Shown in pieces: positions 45,643 through 52,748 of a stretch of DNA of 64,000 bases; the first letter of the stretch is position 1, and every line of letters starts with the position of its first letter. The stretch spans positions 1-64,000 of the forward strand of contig JAKLPS010000017.1 of NCBI GenBank assembly GCA_022013695.1, given 5' to 3'. The notes under the pieces are model-generated. The model was given only the letters and a program-made list of their open reading frames with translations. It was not told where the DNA came from and did not search any database. Both the position numbers and the translations under genes were made by a program. The stretch comes from Weeksellaceae bacterium. Its GTDB lineage: Bacteria; Bacteroidota; Bacteroidia; Flavobacteriales; Weeksellaceae.

Positions 45643-46992
45643 ATGTCTGAATTATACTTATTTCTCGGAATTTTGATTGGTGGATTTTTAGTTTTCATAC
45701 TAATGAAGGCCACTTCCGTAAGCAAAAAAACCTTCGATGAAGCCCATCAAAACTTGATTCGCCTGCACGAAAACGAACTTAATGATCAGCAGAAAATTGA
45801 GGATCTTAAAACTTTGAATCTTGAATTAGCGAAAGAAATTTCATCAATCCAAAAAAACAAAGAAGAATTGCTTTCGGCCAATGCAACTTTATTTGCGAAT
45901 TATAAAAACATGCAAGAAAATCTTGAAAAGCAAAAAGAAGATTTTGTAAAACTTCAGGAAACCTCGCGCCTCCAATTTGAGAAAACAGCCAATCAGATTT
46001 TGGACGAAAAATCGCAAAAATTTACGCAACTCAATCAAAATCAGCTCAAACTGATTTTGGAACCTTTTCAGGAAAAAATCAATGAGCTGAAAAATACCGT
46101 CAACGAAACTTACGACAAAGAATCCAAAGAACGGTTCTCACTCGGCGAAAAAGTCCGCGAGCTGAAAGACCTGAACCAACAAATTTCCGAAGATGCAAAA
46201 AAGCTGACCCGAGCTTTGAAAGGCGAAAGTAAAACGCAGGGAAACTGGGGCGAAATGATTTTGGAAAGCATTCTGGAAAAATCTGGTCTCCGGAAAAATC
46301 AGGAATATTTTATGGAGCACGAACTCCGTGATGAGAACAACAAAGCCATCTTCTCTGAGTTTTCTGGTAAAAAAATGCGTCCGGATGCGGTTGTGAAATA
46401 TCCCGATAACCGCAACGTCATCATCGACAGCAAAGTTTCTCTGACGGCTTTTGTAGAAATGACCGATGAGTCAGATCCCGAGGTTTTCGCCAGCAAACAG
46501 CGTCAACATCTGCAGTCTGTGAAAAACCATATCATGCAGTTGAGCCAGAAAGCGTATGACGATTTTGATAAATCTCTGGATTTTGTGATGATGTTTGTCC
46601 CCAGTGAAGCGGCGTATATGGCGGCTTTGCAAACGGATCCTAACCTTTGGAATTTTGCCTACGACAAAAGAATTTTGTTGCTAAGTCCCACTAATCTGAT
46701 CACTTCTTTGAAGTTGATTGAGGACTTGTGGAAACGCGAACATCAAAACCGGAATGCGATGGATATTGCGGATAGGGGTGCGAAATTATATGACAAATTT
46801 GTTGGATTTGTAGAAAATCTGGAACGCATTGGGAAGAATATCGATCAGGCAAAAAACTCTTATACGGATGCTTACAAGCAGCTAAGTTCCGGCAACGACA
46901 ATCTGATTGCTCAAACCCAGAAACTGAAAAATTTGGGCATCAAAAACAAAAAGAATCTTCCCTCAGGCTTAGAAAATGAAGATTTGTCCTAA
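45643..46992 (+). CDS. rmuC: DNA recombination protein RmuC
   Basis: A 449-residue RmuC: an N-terminal membrane helix (LYLFLGILIGGFLVFILM), a long coiled coil to about residue 190 (EDLKTLNLELAKEISSIQKN and following), then the RmuC nuclease-like domain with QGNWGEMILESILEKSGLRK, RPDAVVKYPDNRNVIIDSKV (Asp...DxK, PD-(D/E)XK-like) and DFVMMFVPSEAAYMAAL. It limits inversions or other rearrangements in E. coli. The protein is typical in length and order. Confidence 0.93.
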   Translation: MSELYLFLGILIGGFLVFILMKATSVSKKTFDEAHQNLIRLHENELNDQQKIEDLKTLNLELAKEISSIQKNKEELLSANATLFANYKNMQENLEKQKEDFVKLQETSRLQFEKTANQILDEKSQKFTQLNQNQLKLILEPFQEKINELKNTVNETYDKESKERFSLGEKVRELKDLNQQISEDAKKLTRALKGESKTQGNWGEMILESILEKSGLRKNQEYFMEHELRDENNKAIFSEFSGKKMRPDAVVKYPDNRNVIIDSKVSLTAFVEMTDESDPEVFASKQRQHLQSVKNHIMQLSQKAYDDFDKSLDFVMMFVPSEAAYMAALQTDPNLWNFAYDKRILLLSPTNLITSLKLIEDLWKREHQNRNAMDIADRGAKLYDKFVGFVENLERIGKNIDQAKNSYTDAYKQLSSGNDNLIAQTQKLKNLGIKNKKNLPSGLENEDLS

Positions 46993-47199: not shown

Positions 47200-48489
47200 A
47201 TGAAAACAAGTACATTTTTAAAAAAGCAAGCCTTGTGGTTTGCCTTGCTGGTAGCAAGCAGTTTTTCTTTTGCGCAAGTAACCGTCAGCACATTCGCTGG
47301 AAGCACGCCAGGATATTTAGATGGTACGGGTACAGCAGCACAGTTCTATTATCCTTTTGGAGTAGCGACTGATGCCTCAGGGAATGTGTATGTCGCCGAT
47401 TATTATAATAGCAAAATACGAAAAATAACCGCCGCAGGTGTGGTGACCACTCTGGCAGGAAGTACAGGAGGCTACGCAGATGGGATAGGTACAGCAGCAA
47501 AGTTTTATTATCCTTATGGAATAGCGGTTGATGCCGGTGGGAATGTGTATGTCGCAGATTATGGTAATAATAGAATACGAAAAATCACGCCGACGGGTGT
47601 CGTAACTACTTTGGCTGGAAGCGCACAGGGTTATGCAGACGGAATAGGGACCGCAGCACAGTTTAGTTATCCCACCGGCGTTGCAGTTGACACTTCAGGG
47701 AATGTTTTTGTCGCAGATACTTTCAATAATAAAATACGAAAAATATCCTCCGCAGGTGTAGTGACGACTGTGGCGGGAAGTACCCAAGGCTATATAGACG
47801 GAACGGGTACCTTAGCACAGTTCTATAATCCTACTGGTATAGAGGTCGATGCCTCGGGCAATTTGTATGTGGCAGATTATGCTAATCATAAGATAAGAAA
47901 AGTCACGCCAGCGGGCGTGGTGACTACATTGGCAGGAAGCATAGCAGGTTACACAGATGGCGCGGGTACGGCAGCACAGTTTAACGCCCCAGCTGGAGTA
48001 GCGCTAGATACCTCCGGAAATGTTTATGTGGCAGACACTAATAACAATAAAATCCGAAAAATCAGTTCAACTGGTCTTGTTACTACCTTGGCTGGAAGTA
48101 CGCAAGGCTATGCCGACGGGATCGGCACGGCAGCACAGTTTAACATTCCAGCAGAAGTAGCGGTGGACCCATCAGGGATAATGTATATCACCGATTATTC
48201 TAATCACAAAATCCGAAAAATAACAGGTGCTTTTTTGAGCACAGCATCCCATAATACTTTAAAAGATCTAAAAGCTTATCCCAATCCTTCCAATGGCATT
48301 TTTGTGATACAAACAGATGGCAATGCGGCCGTAGAAGTATTTGACCCCACAGGAAAACAAATTTTCTCTCAAAAAGTAAATGGTCAAAATTCTACTATTG
48401 ACTTAAGCCAATATCCCGCCGGAATCTATTTAGCCAAAGTAACCACCGACAAAAAACAGAGTAAAACGGTTAAATTAGTTAAAAAATAA
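47200..48489 (+). CDS. NHL-repeat beta-propeller protein with T9SS sorting domain, copy 1
   Basis: A 429-residue secreted protein. The signal peptide is followed by VTVSTFAGSTPGY and six ~56-residue repeats of the form AGST-GY-DGTGTAAQF-PxGVAVDxSGNVYVADxxNxKIRKI-AGVVTT. These are NHL-type repeats expected to fold as a six-bladed propeller. A T9SS type A sorting domain ends the protein (LKAYPNPSNGIFVIQTDGN, AGIYLAKVTTD, TVKLVKK). Propellers of this kind can bind ligands or act as lyases; no catalytic residues are evident. It is the first of three tandem paralogues; blades 4-5 match blades 3-4 of copy 3. Confidence 0.92.
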   Translation: MKTSTFLKKQALWFALLVASSFSFAQVTVSTFAGSTPGYLDGTGTAAQFYYPFGVATDASGNVYVADYYNSKIRKITAAGVVTTLAGSTGGYADGIGTAAKFYYPYGIAVDAGGNVYVADYGNNRIRKITPTGVVTTLAGSAQGYADGIGTAAQFSYPTGVAVDTSGNVFVADTFNNKIRKISSAGVVTTVAGSTQGYIDGTGTLAQFYNPTGIEVDASGNLYVADYANHKIRKVTPAGVVTTLAGSIAGYTDGAGTAAQFNAPAGVALDTSGNVYVADTNNNKIRKISSTGLVTTLAGSTQGYADGIGTAAQFNIPAEVAVDPSGIMYITDYSNHKIRKITGAFLSTASHNTLKDLKAYPNPSNGIFVIQTDGNAAVEVFDPTGKQIFSQKVNGQNSTIDLSQYPAGIYLAKVTTDKKQSKTVKLVKK

Positions 48490-48559
48490 ATAAATTTTAG
48501 ATGAAATAAATTAACTTTCACAATCCTATTTTTACTAACCCTTAAATTTTAATTTTATT

Positions 48560-49855
48560 ATGAAAACAATGACCTCTTTAAAAAAGCAAGCCTTGTGGTT
48601 TGCCCTGCTTGTAGCAAGCAGTTTTTCTTTTGCGCAAGTAACGGTAAGCACATTGGCAGGAAGCACACAAGGCTATGCAGATGGTACCGGTACAGCAGCA
48701 CAGTTTAATTATCCTTATGGAGTAGCGACTGATGCCTCAGGGAATGTTTATGTAGCAGATGCTGCTAATTGGAAAATACGAAAAATAACGCCAGCTGGTG
48801 TCGTAACCACTTTTGCGGGAAGCACCAAAGGTTATGCAGACGGAACGGGTACAGCAGCAAAGTTTGATAGTCCACTTGGAGTAGCGGTAGATGCCTCTGG
48901 GAATGTCTATGTAACAGATAGTGAGATTAATATTATACGAAAAATAACGCCAGCAGGTGTGGTAACCACTTTGGCAGGGAGTACATTTTTTGGCTATGCT
49001 GACGGAACAGGTACAGCAGCACACTTTAGTCATACCTCTGGAGTAGCGGTTGATGTTTCTGGGAATGTGTATGTAGGAGACTTTAATAATTGTAGAATAC
49101 GAAAAATAACGCCGGCAGGTGTGGTGACCACTTTGGCAGGTGGTGGCCAAGGCTATGCTGACGGAACGGGTACGGCAGCAATGTTTAACTTTCCCACCGG
49201 AGTAGCGGTTGATACCTCTGGGAATGTGTATGTGGCAGATTATTCTAATCATAAAATACGAAAAATAACGCCGGCAGGTGTGGTAACCACTTTGGCAGGA
49301 AGCACACAAGGTGATGCTGACGGAACAGGTACGGCAGCACAGTTTAGTTATCCCACCGGAGTAGCGGTTGATGTTTCTGGGAATGTGTATGTAGCAGACT
49401 TTAATAATCATAGAATACGAAAAATATCGCCTCTAGGTGTGGTAACCACTTTGGCTGGAAGTACAAAAGGCTATGCTATTGACGGAATCGGTACAGCAGC
49501 ACAGTTTAATGATCCCTACGGAGTAGCGACTGATGCTTCTGGGAATGTCTATGTAACAGATAATGGTAATCACAAAATACGAAAAATAACAGGTGCTTTT
49601 TTGAGCACAGCATCCTATAATTCTTTAAAAAATCTCAAAGCCTATCCCAATCCTTCCAAGGGCATTTTTGTGATACAAACAGATGGCAATGCGGCCGTAG
49701 AAGTATTTGACTCCACAGGAAAACAAATTTTCTCTCAAAAAGTAAATGGTCAAAATTCTACTATTGACTTAAGCCAATATCCCGCTGGAATCTATTTAGC
49801 CAAAGTAACCACCGACAATAAACAGAGCAAAACTGTTAAGTTGATTAGGCAATAA
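48560..49855 (+). CDS. NHL-repeat beta-propeller protein with T9SS sorting domain, copy 2
   Basis: A 431-residue secreted paralogue with the same plan: signal peptide (LLVASSFSFAQ, shared with copy 1), six NHL repeats and a sorting tail nearly identical to that of copy 1. The blades differ from its neighbours: blade 3 has an extra residue (AGSTFFGYADG), blade 4 has AGGGQGYADG and blade 6 an insertion (GYAIDGIG). It lies 70 bp after copy 1. The high identity of the ends versus the divergence of the blades suggests gene conversion among the copies. Probably co-transcribed; no terminators are seen between them. Confidence 0.92.
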   Translation: MKTMTSLKKQALWFALLVASSFSFAQVTVSTLAGSTQGYADGTGTAAQFNYPYGVATDASGNVYVADAANWKIRKITPAGVVTTFAGSTKGYADGTGTAAKFDSPLGVAVDASGNVYVTDSEINIIRKITPAGVVTTLAGSTFFGYADGTGTAAHFSHTSGVAVDVSGNVYVGDFNNCRIRKITPAGVVTTLAGGGQGYADGTGTAAMFNFPTGVAVDTSGNVYVADYSNHKIRKITPAGVVTTLAGSTQGDADGTGTAAQFSYPTGVAVDVSGNVYVADFNNHRIRKISPLGVVTTLAGSTKGYAIDGIGTAAQFNDPYGVATDASGNVYVTDNGNHKIRKITGAFLSTASYNSLKNLKAYPNPSKGIFVIQTDGNAAVEVFDSTGKQIFSQKVNGQNSTIDLSQYPAGIYLAKVTTDNKQSKTVKLIRQ

Positions 49856-49903
49856 ATTTATTTCACAATCCAATTTTTTATAAACCCTTTAACTGAAATC
49901 ATT

Positions 49904-51193
49904 ATGAAAACAACGACATTTTTAAAAAAGCAAATCCTCATATCTGCAATGCTTTTAATAAGCAGTTTTTCTTTTGCACAAGTAACCGTCAGCACATTGG
50001 CAGGAAGCACACAAGGCTATGCAGATGGTACCGGTACAGCAGCACAGTTTAATTTCCCAACTGGAGTAGCAGCTGATGCCTCTGGAAATGTCTATGTCGC
50101 CGATTATTTGAATAACAGAATAAGAAAAATAACGCCGGCGGGTGTCGTAACTACTTTGGCAGGAAGCACATTAGGTAATACAGATGGAACGGGTGCCGCC
50201 GCACACTTTAACAATCCAACCGGAATAGCAGTAGATGCCTCTGGGACTGTTTACGTAGCAGATACCTACAATCATAAAATACGAAAAATAACGCCTCAAG
50301 GCGAGGTAACTACTTTGGCAGGAAGTACTCAAGGCTATGCAGACGGAACGGGAACCTTAGCTCAGTTTTATAATCCTATTGGTGTAGCGGTCGATGCGTC
50401 GGGGAATTTGTATGTGGCAGATTATGCCAATCATAAAATAAGAAAAGTCACTTCTTCTGGTGTGGTGACCACTTTGGCAGGAAGCACAGCAGGTTACACA
50501 GATGGTACAGGCACAGCAACAAAGTTTAATTATCCAGCAGGCGTTGCGGTAGATACCTCTGGAAATGTGTACGTGGCAGATACTTTTAATCATAAAATAC
50601 GAAAAATAACCTCCGCGGGTGTAGTGACGACTGTGGCAGGAAGCACACAAGGCTATGCCGACGGAACGGGTACGGCGGCTCAATTTAAAAGCCCATACGG
50701 CGTGGCAGTGGACGCTTCTGGGAATGTGTATGTAGCCGATTATGGTAATAATAGAATACGAAAAATCACAGTTACAGGTGTTGTGACTACTGTCGCAGGA
50801 AGCACTGCTGGCTATGCAGATGGTAGTGATGCCCTCGCACAATTTAGTAATCCTTATGATGTCACTATTGATGCTTTGGGGAATATATACGTGGCAGACA
50901 CATCCAATCATAAAATAAGAAAAATAGAGGGAATTATTTTAAGTACATCCTCGGACAGTTTTGTAAAAACTTTAAAAGCCTATCCCAATCCTTCCACCGG
51001 CATTTTTGTGATACAAACAGATGGCAATGCGGCCGTAGATGTATTTGACCCAGCAGGAAAACAAATTTTATCTCAAAAAATAAATGGTCAAAATTCTACT
51101 ATTGACTTAAGCCAATATCCCGCTGGAATCTATTTAGCCAAAGTAACCACCGACAAAAAACAGAGCAAAACTGTTAAGTTGATTAAGCGATAA
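49904..51193 (+). CDS. NHL-repeat beta-propeller protein with T9SS sorting domain, copy 3
   Basis: A 429-residue paralogue. Its signal-peptide region differs (QILISAMLLISSFSFAQ) from that of copies 1-2, but the mature start VTVSTLAGSTQGYADGTGTA equals copy 2. There are six NHL repeats; the last carries AGYADGSDALAQFSNPYDV. The T9SS sorting tail is almost the same as in the other copies (FVIQTDGNAAVDVFDPAGKQ). The linker before it (ILSTSSDSFVKTLKAYPNPS) differs. Blades 3-4 resemble copy 1 blades 4-5. It ends the cluster; hemB converges from the other side. Confidence 0.92.
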   Translation: MKTTTFLKKQILISAMLLISSFSFAQVTVSTLAGSTQGYADGTGTAAQFNFPTGVAADASGNVYVADYLNNRIRKITPAGVVTTLAGSTLGNTDGTGAAAHFNNPTGIAVDASGTVYVADTYNHKIRKITPQGEVTTLAGSTQGYADGTGTLAQFYNPIGVAVDASGNLYVADYANHKIRKVTSSGVVTTLAGSTAGYTDGTGTATKFNYPAGVAVDTSGNVYVADTFNHKIRKITSAGVVTTVAGSTQGYADGTGTAAQFKSPYGVAVDASGNVYVADYGNNRIRKITVTGVVTTVAGSTAGYADGSDALAQFSNPYDVTIDALGNIYVADTSNHKIRKIEGIILSTSSDSFVKTLKAYPNPSTGIFVIQTDGNAAVDVFDPAGKQILSQKINGQNSTIDLSQYPAGIYLAKVTTDKKQSKTVKLIKR

Positions 51194-51298: not shown

Positions 51299-52285
51299 CT
51301 ATCGGTTAAGCAGTCTCGCCACCTCTTCGGCGGCATAGGTGAAGATCATATCGGCACCAGCTCTTTTGATGGAGGTCAGACTTTCTAAGAGAACTTTGTC
51401 ATTGTCCAACCAGCCGTTTTGCGAAGCCGCTTTCAGCATAGCATATTCGCCGCTTACCTGATAAACGGCAATCGGCTGTGTAATAAGCTCACGAATCTTG
51501 GAAACAATGTCCAGATAAGGCATTCCGGGTTTTATCATAATGATGTCGGCACCTTCCTCAACATCTTTTAACGCTTCATCAATCGCCTCGCGGGCGTTAT
51601 GAAAATCCATCTGATAGGTTTTTTTGTCTGCGGGTATATTTTTCTCGTCAACGGGAGCGCTATCCAAAGCTGTCCGGAACGGGCCATAAAAAGCACTTGC
51701 ATATTTGGCAGCGTAGGACAAAATCCCAACATCGGTGAAGCCATTTTCCTCCAAACCTTGTCGCATCGCGAGAACACGGCCATCCATCATATCGCTTGGC
51801 GCCAGAATGTCTGCACCTGCTTCGGCGTGGGAAATTCCCATTTTCACAAGCGCTTCCACCGTGCGATCATTATCGATTTTTCCATTTTTGATGATGCCGT
51901 CGTGACCGTAGATGGAATAAGGATCCAACGCAACATCTGGCATTACGATGACCCCTGGAACAGCATCTTTGATGGCCTTGATGGTGTTTTGCATCAATCC
52001 ATCGGGATTCCACGCTTCCTTTCCGGTGTTATCTTTCAAATGCTCTGAAACTTTCATATAAAGGTTGATGGCCTTGATGCCCAAGTCGTAATTTTCCTTT
52101 ACCGTTTTCACCGTGAGATCCAAACTTTGGCGGAAGACGCCGGGCATTGCAGAAATGGCTTCTTTCTTGTTCTCACCTTCTGTGACAAACATCGGCAACA
52201 CCAAATCGTTTGTCGTAAGGACTGTTTCGCGCACCAACTGGCGGATGGACTCATTGGTTCGGAGTCTTCTGTTTCTTGAAATCAT
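51299..52285 (-). CDS. hemB: porphobilinogen synthase
   Basis: A 328-residue enzyme condensing two 5-aminolevulinate molecules to porphobilinogen in heme synthesis. Schiff-base lysines are Lys194 (LSYAAKYASAFYGPF) and Lys252 (IIMIKPGMPYLDI). Residues 117-130 read DVALDPYSIYGHDG: the zinc-binding cysteines of the Zn-dependent type are replaced by Ala and Asp, as in the Mg-dependent type. The N-terminal RNRRLRTNESIRQLVRE is typical. A TAAATTTG -7 box is at 52306. Confidence 0.96.
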   Translation of the reverse strand: MISRNRRLRTNESIRQLVRETVLTTNDLVLPMFVTEGENKKEAISAMPGVFRQSLDLTVKTVKENYDLGIKAINLYMKVSEHLKDNTGKEAWNPDGLMQNTIKAIKDAVPGVIVMPDVALDPYSIYGHDGIIKNGKIDNDRTVEALVKMGISHAEAGADILAPSDMMDGRVLAMRQGLEENGFTDVGILSYAAKYASAFYGPFRTALDSAPVDEKNIPADKKTYQMDFHNAREAIDEALKDVEEGADIIMIKPGMPYLDIVSKIRELITQPIAVYQVSGEYAMLKAASQNGWLDNDKVLLESLTSIKRAGADMIFTYAAEEVARLLNR

Positions 52286-52305
52286 CTTTAGAAAAAATAT
52301 TGATG

Positions 52306-52313
52306 CAAATTTA
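52306..52313 (-). promoter_or_regulatory. promoter -7 box TAAATTTG for hemB
   Basis: Minus-strand TAAATTTG matches TAnnTTTG, 20 bp upstream of the hemB ATG. Confidence 0.6.
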
Positions 52314-52359
52314 ATTATACTTTTATTGTTAGACTATTGCATATTCAATTTATTTAAAA

Positions 52360-52367
52360 TATATTTG
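52360..52367 (+). promoter_or_regulatory. promoter -7 box TATATTTG for the small T9SS protein
   Basis: It matches TAnnTTTG, 30 bp before ATG 52398 and divergent from the hemB promoter. Confidence 0.55.
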
Positions 52368-52397
52368 TTGCAATTGTTTCAGTTTAGACAAAAGCGA

Positions 52398-52748
52398 ATG
52401 AAAAAACTTTTATTCTTTATCATCTTTACCGCGTTATCAGTGGGATTTTCTGGAGAAATGAAGGCTCAAACAACAGCCCGAACCATTTCCAGTCAAAAAA
52501 CCGACGATGGTATTTTGGTGGCGTATCCGAACCCTACTCGGGATGTTTTGATCCTTAAATCCAAAGATGCTGCTGTTAAAATAAAAACAGTGACATTTTT
52601 TTCCATTTTGGGCGCTCAAGTAGCGGAATATAATATCAACAGCAACAATACAGAATTGAGGCTTGATAAATTGCGTCCGGGAAAATATCTGATGCGCTAC
52701 ACAATGGACGACAATACACAGAAAATAACCCAGATTATCAAACAATAA
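52398..52748 (+). CDS. T9SS type A sorting domain with almost no passenger
   Basis: A 116-residue exported protein. The signal peptide (LLFFIIFTALSVGFSGEMKAQ) is followed by only about 15 residues before a complete type A sorting domain: VAYPNPTRDVLILKSK, VTFFSILGAQVAEYN, KLRPGKYLMRY, ending TQIIKQ. The start at ATG 52398 is supported by the signal peptide and a promoter box; the longer frame upstream runs through the hemB promoter and the 5' end of hemB. With no room for a folded cargo domain it may be a decoy or matrix component of the T9SS surface, or a relic of a longer protein. Confidence 0.8.
   Translation: MKKLLFFIIFTALSVGFSGEMKAQTTARTISSQKTDDGILVAYPNPTRDVLILKSKDAAVKIKTVTFFSILGAQVAEYNINSNNTELRLDKLRPGKYLMRYTMDDNTQKITQIIKQ

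Follow-up and report, generated by a model that had tools for sequence, protein, structure and literature searches.

Tandem genes for T9SS-tailed six-bladed NHL propellers with inner blades that have probably recombined among paralogues

The window analyzed here is a stretch of 64,000 nucleotides from a Weeksellaceae bacterium (assembly GCA_022013695.1, contig JAKLPS010000017.1), and our subject is an array of three tandem genes on its forward strand that encode six-bladed NHL propellers. Copy 1 (c1; 47200..48489) and copy 3 (c3; 49904..51193) each encode 429 amino acids. Copy 2 (c2; 48560..49855) encodes 431, with one-residue insertions in blades 3 and 6. The genes are separated by 70 (c1-c2) and 48 nucleotides (c2-c3). 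Each protein consists of a hydrophobic N-terminus, six units of 53 residues and an 81-residue tail with a type A sorting domain of the type IX secretion system (T9SS). The N-termini, read by eye from the sequence, end in SFAQ and resemble signal peptides. The Pfam NHL model (PF01436; E 4.7e-49 for c1) scored 162.5, 156.9 and 180.8 bits in c1, c2 and c3 (cut-off 20), and a scan of the whole genome found 18 places above this cut-off, every one inside the units of the three genes. The sorting domains matched their profile on the forward strand at 48274-48486 (c1), 49640-49852 (c2) and 50978..51190 (c3). The tails score above the curated cut-offs (in c1, both PF18962 and TIGR04183), and all three proteins carry the C-terminal Por_Secre_tail domain that marks T9SS type A cargo. 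Thus, three tandem six-blade propeller genes with T9SS tails are present as claimed in an earlier note on this DNA (the original prediction), and all three keep the six blades that it took to be a limit. The tails are highly alike, at 88-93% nucleotide identity, for which the earlier wording 'near-identical' was a little strong. Because the genome (2.6 Mb in 33 contigs) encodes sprA and 49 T9SS sorting domains, export of c1-c3 by this system is likely. Compared with T9SS type A cargo of Bacteroidota, the tails are ordinary; only the propeller array is unusual.

We modeled one of the three proteins, copy 3, with AlphaFold, using 14 aligned sequences. The mean predicted local distance difference test score (pLDDT) was 87.4, with values mostly >90 in the propeller and <50 at residues 1-24 and 345-354. 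The strand order of the model is that of a closed ring of six four-stranded blades, the fold that the original prediction had expected from structure prediction. In the numbering of the unit, strand A occupies positions 22-27, B 33-37, C 42-46 and D 51-53, continuing into 1-3 of the next unit. As we read the model, the first strand of the protein (residues 28-33) is the last strand of blade 6, placing both termini in blade 6 as in known six-bladed NHL propellers. The nearest solved folds are NHL propellers, namely teneurin-like proteins, SUPPRESSOR OF QUENCHING 1, Pizza6, NHLRC2, Thin, TRIM71 and PknD. The known six-bladed examples (the PknD extracellular domain, TRIM-NHL proteins, NHLRC2, Pizza6 and teneurin NHL) resemble c1-c3 in fold and blade number. 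However, they are differentiated or designed, whereas c1-c3 are T9SS-tailed, form a tandem array and have mixed blades.

We compared the 18 blades with each other (c1b4 denotes blade 4 of copy 1). Mean nucleotide identity was 72.0% for blades of one gene, 73.7% for blades that share a position across genes and 71.5% for all remaining pairs. For 13 of the 18 blades the nearest relative lay in another gene, at another position in seven cases and at the same position in six. The remaining five blades, all in c2 and one of them a tie, were nearest to a blade of their own ring. A blade at the same position of another gene was the nearest relative of 5 of 6 end blades (blades 1 and 6), but of only 1 of 12 inner blades. 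This single inner case is c3b5, which matches c2b5 at 76% nucleotide identity, with c3b1 and c1b2 close behind at 75%. Ties for the nearest relative occurred for c2b6 (c2b1/c1b6), c3b6 (c2b6/c2b1) and c1b2 (c3b1/c2b1). The first 61 nucleotides of c3b1 (49994..50054, forward strand) are identical to those of c2b1, an end blade kept in position. Blade 6 of copy 3 (50789-50947) is the most divergent of the 18 despite its end position, with at most 66% nucleotide identity to any other blade, and is likewise the outlier in protein identity (49-64%). Median protein identity between blades of the same gene was 66, 74 and 72% in c1, c2 and c3 (ranges 58-77, 66-81 and 55-85%).

Several matches between inner blades connect different positions. 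Blades c1b4 and c3b3 share 86% of nucleotides and 87% of amino acids, including the motifs GTLAQFYNP and SGNLYVADYANHKIRKVT. At third codon positions their identity was 73.6%, compared to a mean of 55.8% over all 153 pairs; because silent sites agree, we attribute this match to descent and reject convergent selection on the protein. Blades c1b5 and c3b4 (77% nucleotide and 79% amino acid identity) have AGYTDG in common, and c1b3 resembles c3b4 at 80% nucleotide identity. These three pairs had been pointed out in the original prediction and are confirmed. A fourth, c1b2 with c3b5, stands at the protein level (83%; common motif VADYGNNRIRKIT.TGVVTT) but not at the nucleotide level, where c1b2 is closer to c2b1 and c3b1 (81%) than to c3b5 (75%). 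Within c2, blades 3-5 (48968..49447, forward strand) are mutual nearest relatives, with nucleotide identities of 87% (b3-b5), 83% (b4-b5) and 79% (b3-b4), and look like the product of amplification or conversion within the gene.

Simple histories were tested with trees of the 18 blades (159 alignment columns). Grouping by position alone cost 58.2 log-likelihood units, with a p of 0.0004 in the approximately unbiased (AU) test, a value biased low here; the maximum cost in 40 sets simulated under that history was 15.7. Grouping by gene alone cost 81.9 units (AU p 8e-6), with a maximum of 14.9 in 24 simulated sets. Constraints on single positions were read against the whole-position simulations, without simulations of their own. 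On this scale, blades 3 (38.7 units) and 4 (36.1) rejected grouping by position and blade 5 (16.8) was marginal; the constraint on blade 2 cost 6.4 units, and those on blades 1 and 6 were not rejected (AU p 0.60 and 0.61). As far as the blade sequences record their history, these tests show that neither position nor gene accounts for the relationships of the inner blades, and that the end blades mostly stay in place. Strict grouping by position, the outcome that the original prediction had set against itself, did not occur. The clustering across genes that it proposed instead applies to the inner blades but not to blades 1 and 6.

Recombination signals were also found inside blades. The pairwise homoplasy index (PHI) test on the 18 blades gave p ~5e-5, the floor of 20,000 permutations. 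With third positions only, p was 0.006 in a 15-nucleotide window and 0.0016 in a 30-nucleotide window. Of 40 simulated sets, 0 and 2 fell below 0.05 in the two windows. The signal remained significant when the end blades were left out (p 0.0005 and 0.004). A painting model assigned a 301-nucleotide tract of c1, from nucleotide 5 of blade 4 to nucleotide 146 of blade 5 (47771..48071, forward strand), to c3 as best donor at 83% identity. The partner tract in c3 lies one blade earlier, from nucleotide 5 of blade 3 to nucleotide 146 of blade 4 (50316..50616, forward strand). The model also gave many shorter tracts, and tract borders are rough. Blade c1b3 divides into a front half nearest to c2b5 (86%) and a back half nearest to c3b4 (85%). 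Thus, the proposal that blades are the unit of exchange between paralogues captures the mixing of inner blades but is too narrow, as breakpoints also fall within blades and part of the mixing is confined to one gene (c2b3-c2b5).

Among the 23 genomes of the genus that we searched, this one included, the array (E 1e-40 or better) is present in two. The second belongs to a sister species (G012) and has the array at the same site, split over two contigs. Blades 1-3 of its first gene are collinear with those of c1 (79, 89 and 84% nucleotide identity). The final blade of the sister array resembles that of c1 (84% to c1b6), whereas the tail there begins like the tail of c3. Different blades of this array match each other exactly over runs of 113, 102 and 75 nucleotides; between its blades and those of the present genome, no exact run exceeds 46 nucleotides.

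We next consider NHL proteins elsewhere. A blade model built from the 18 units found exactly six units in 24 of the 44 listed proteins (a list that excludes loci L050-L095) and 12 or 18 units in four more; the other 16 have different numbers, some being truncated where a contig ends or too divergent for this model. An uncultured Flavobacteriaceae carries four six-unit NHL genes in tandem (L020, 6903-13144), with a median within-gene identity of 40-45%. For this locus and for two three-propeller proteins (L024, L025), trees by position alone and by gene alone are likewise rejected, each beyond the range of 16 simulated sets. L018 (5994-9266) and L029 (8004-10967), labeled Arcobacteraceae and Nitrospirae, have six NHL blades each, at median identities of 80 and 76%; if the labels hold, these are strongly homogenized propellers outside Bacteroidota.

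In our assessment, c1-c3 probably constitute a family of secreted six-bladed NHL propellers that evolves by recombination among its 18 homologous blades, with the ends fixed. We give this reading a probability of about two in three; recombination itself is well supported. Unequal crossing-over or gene conversion between blade repeats would move blades, entire or in part, around within a gene or from one gene to another. The end blades adjoin unique N-terminal and tail sequence and mostly stay in place. In the copy 3 model the first strand completes blade 6, so that the two ends would have to keep fitting each other; selection would remove any product that does not close into a six-blade ring. 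T9SS would then deliver the proteins to the cell surface or release them outside. There, the face that bears the variable D-A and B-C loops may bind a carbohydrate, protein or other ligand. Exchange together with mutation at these positions would yield three rings with different faces on one scaffold.

Several observations weigh against this reading. On alignments as short as these, AU p values come out too small, with the true tree falling below 0.05 in 9 of 40 simulations; we therefore relied on the likelihood gaps, and p values of 0.01-0.05 mean little. The correlation of front-half and back-half distances (0.20) is barely outside the simulated range (0.23-0.71). A GENECONV-like permutation test, a mosaic check that the original prediction had suggested, was nearly empty on the 18 blades and found nothing on third positions. 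Its two marginal fragments, c1b5/c1b6 (global p 0.035) and c2b1/c3b1 (0.051), are not among the pairs originally named, and we keep this near-null result as evidence against recent exchange in this genome. Moreover, the clearest exchange (c1b4-5 with c3b3-4) appears to be old, roughly of the age of the split from the sister species, because c1b4 and c3b3 agree at third positions about as well as orthologues do across the split (62.3, 71.7 and 73.6% for blades 1-3 of c1 against the sister's first gene; 79.3% for rmuC). The one-blade shift between c1 and c3, seen as a mean identity of 77.1% at offset -1 versus 69.9% at offset 0, comes second among the 720 blade orders when only that offset is considered, but has a permutation P of 0.089 once any offset may be chosen. 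PHI detected no within-blade signal in L024 or L020, and in L025 only in the short window. Finally, the sister assembly breaks inside the array and contains an N, and assembly may contribute to its exact runs. The 102-nucleotide run starts at the first base of one contig, the 113-nucleotide run ends at the last base of the other, and the 75-nucleotide run adjoins the N. Inward of each of the two longer runs, the two contigs carry different sequence, which means that there are two contexts. An assembly error in the array of this genome is unlikely, because the longest exact match within it is only 76 nucleotides (tail to tail), followed by 61 between blades (c2b1-c3b1) and 37, a judgment made without the read length.

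Positional grouping of end blades and tails would be expected if one six-bladed gene had been duplicated twice and its blades had diverged in place, the mixing being noise from short, saturated repeats. Among the 720 blade orders, zero offset indeed takes rank 14 for c1-c2 and rank 7 for c2-c3, c3b5 is nearest to c2b5, and grouping by position costs little for blade 2 and is marginal for blade 5. However, the gap of the position-only tree far exceeds that of any of the 40 simulations, 11 of 12 inner blades have no nearest partner at the same position of another gene, and blades 3 and 4 already contradict divergence in place, which we consider very improbable. Amplification of each propeller anew from a single blade, as for highly repetitive propellers, is scarcely credible. 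The within-gene medians fall in the range of that class and c2 blades 3-5 resemble a local amplification, but the gene-only tree fails against all 24 simulations, and the 13 blades nearest to a blade of another gene contradict this history for c1 and c3. Ongoing shuffling might also be replaced by a few discrete unequal events, in which c3 (or c1) lost a blade near its start and gained one near its end, producing the one-blade shift, with a single amplification of c2 blades 3-5. The identity at offset -1 and its rank agree with such a history, as does the clustering of c2b3-c2b5 (97 and 96% support). Yet c1b3 and c3b2 are only 72% identical, with c1b3 nearest to c3b4 and c2b5 in its two halves; PHI calls for breakpoints within blades; and additional exact copies of blades occur in the sister species, as far as its assembly can show. 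We regard this explanation as unlikely.

As to function, pairwise counts over the 18 blades gave mean proportions of synonymous (pS) and non-synonymous differences (pN) of 0.55 and 0.19, with pS near saturation. Sites were flagged where pN exceeded both pS and 0.15. Unit positions 7, 21, 23, 38, 39 and 50 had pN above pS, the signal at position 50 reflecting the altered end of blade 6. The excess at flagged sites is modest, and the synonymous sites of those codons are not unusually fast. Seven variable sites were chosen on these 18 blades. Of these, 7, 20 and 21 belong to the D-A loop and 38, 39 and 41 to the B-C loop, and 23 lies early in strand A; in a propeller, the two loops are on the same face. 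These sites were more variable than the rest in all seven comparison sets (p 0.0013 or lower), which were picked for clear repeats from 80 loci (L017, L018, L024, L025, L026, L029 and L030). Thus, variability at the seven sites is a property of the family, and by itself does not show selection.

The original prediction offered diversification of a surface antigen or of ligand specificity as a possible purpose, which we keep as a hypothesis. In a more elaborate form, the array may be a bacterial surface-displayed recognition repertoire in which tandem T9SS propellers swap half-blade cassettes with separate hypervariable loops (D-A and B-C), conserved end blades serving as fixed adaptors. This proposal is speculative and, on present evidence, doubtful. 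If it were true, each lineage would assemble its binding faces afresh while keeping the six-blade frame, for instance to recognize self and non-self, prey, host or phage. Should the variable face prove to bind, the three genes would amount to a set of natural binders that share a scaffold. Alternatively, the variable loops may reflect relaxed constraint rather than selection for binding diversity, the proteins having a structural or other fixed role. Such an explanation concerns function only and is compatible with blade exchange. It agrees with the modest excess of pN over a nearly saturated pS, with the variation of the same sites in seven other sets, as expected of exposed loops, and with the occurrence of the cluster in 2 of 23 genus genomes, which implies that it is dispensable. 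On the other hand, the C-D loop is less variable than the B-C loop (mean entropy 1.35 versus 1.75), and the ordinary rate of synonymous sites in the same codons also speaks against it. We find relaxed constraint possible, at somewhat less than even odds. For TRIM-NHL propellers, the available part of one study places putative binding at the top opening, where sequence diversity is high (PMC9634614).

The nearest known mechanism is that of the het-d/het-e (HNWD) genes of Podospora anserina. As described in the available parts of two reports, their WD40 propeller repeats are exchanged within and between genes of the family, which keeps them alike, and four interaction-surface positions per repeat are under diversifying selection (PMC1805685, PMC2873952). 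Likewise, c1-c3 have repeat exchange within and between family members (the part from the sister species being subject to its assembly limits), and a few positions per blade are especially variable, on what may be the binding face. In contrast to these fungal, intracellular HET-NACHT-WD40 proteins of variable repeat number (usually 11 in functional alleles), c1-c3 are bacterial, T9SS-tailed NHL proteins of six blades, known here from a single genome per species. No NACHT, HET or WD40 model was among the matches of c1-c3 at E 0.001; they are not members of the HNWD family. The array would be a small bacterial counterpart of the fungal WD40 recognition genes. Short-read assemblies are unreliable at the het-d/het-e repeats, according to the accessible part of PMC12222747.

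Two main propeller histories, amplification from one blade and slow positional divergence, are described in the parts available of Pereira and Lupas 2022 (PMC9218822). There, highly repetitive propellers arise by global amplification from a single blade and by local amplification; old propellers are alike at equivalent blades, having diverged by position, and young ones have blades nearest within their own ring. c1-c3 resemble the highly repetitive class in their high internal blade identity (medians above 60% in all three), a lineage-preferred blade number and local amplification. However, only the five c2 blades are nearest to their own ring, and c1 and c3 fit neither the old nor the young type as set out in those parts, most of their inner blades being nearest to other positions of other genes. 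Fixed ends with inner blades mixing across genes would be a third, testable history in a closed fold.

Among NCBIfam propeller models, those of ScyF and the ScyD/ScyE family, which also have NHL repeats, scored best for c1-c3. The ScyF equivalog (NF035926) reached 121.2, 104.4 and 180.7 bits in c1, c2 and c3, below its cut-off of 350, and the ScyD/ScyE family (NF033206) missed its cut-off of 80 with 66.7, 62.9 and 75.7 bits, the last narrowly. ScyF has PEP-CTERM by name, whereas c1-c3 have a T9SS tail. In the open-licence PMC literature we found no paper on T9SS-linked NHL propellers of Bacteroidetes or on hypervariable bacterial NHL propellers, although such work may be in print elsewhere; a search of the same literature for recombination or concerted evolution of propeller blades in bacterial paralogues turned up the Podospora work. 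Other related literature, available in part, comprises PMC6805158, PMC3797127, PMC7159879 and PMC5908797.

The site of the array is bordered on the left by rmuC (45643..46992, forward strand) and on the right by hemB (delta-aminolevulinic acid dehydratase, PF00490; 51299..52285, reverse strand), whose products share 92% and 94.5% of their amino acids with those of the sister species. Of the other 22 genomes of the genus, 13 contain both rmuC and hemB in the flank that was retrieved, and nothing between the two genes matches NHL; in two genomes the flank does not show hemB, and in six a more distant rmuC lacks these neighbors in its flank. Because only two genomes carry the array and 13 show the rmuC-hemB site without NHL, a gain in the ancestor of the two species is likely; loss elsewhere is possible. 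A blastn search (E 1e-3) found nothing common to the array flanks and the 13 propeller-free intergenic regions, so that the insertion point cannot be placed to the base. Carriage of the array by a plasmid or phage was rejected: the NHL proteins found in 18 plasmid records (E 1e-30) and two phage records (E 1e-20) are all distant, at less than 60% identity, and the G+C content of the array is close to that of its surroundings. Adjoining hemB, here and in many genomes of the genus, the window encodes a small protein that is mostly T9SS tail (52113-52748); translation may really begin at a more internal ATG, like the one at 1885 in L096. An NHL homologue in another genome (G163; L126, 1480-2484) has one in-frame TGA and no tail pattern in the frame examined, and is possibly a decayed copy. 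In the sister species, a transposase-like gene in two overlapping frames lies between rmuC and the first propeller gene (L097, 1138-2143), with no counterpart at this place in the window. Its pieces are 109 amino acids with HTH_38 (PF13936) and 240 amino acids with a sub-threshold integrase core (29.4 of 32.6 bits), and we take the gene to be IS30-like.

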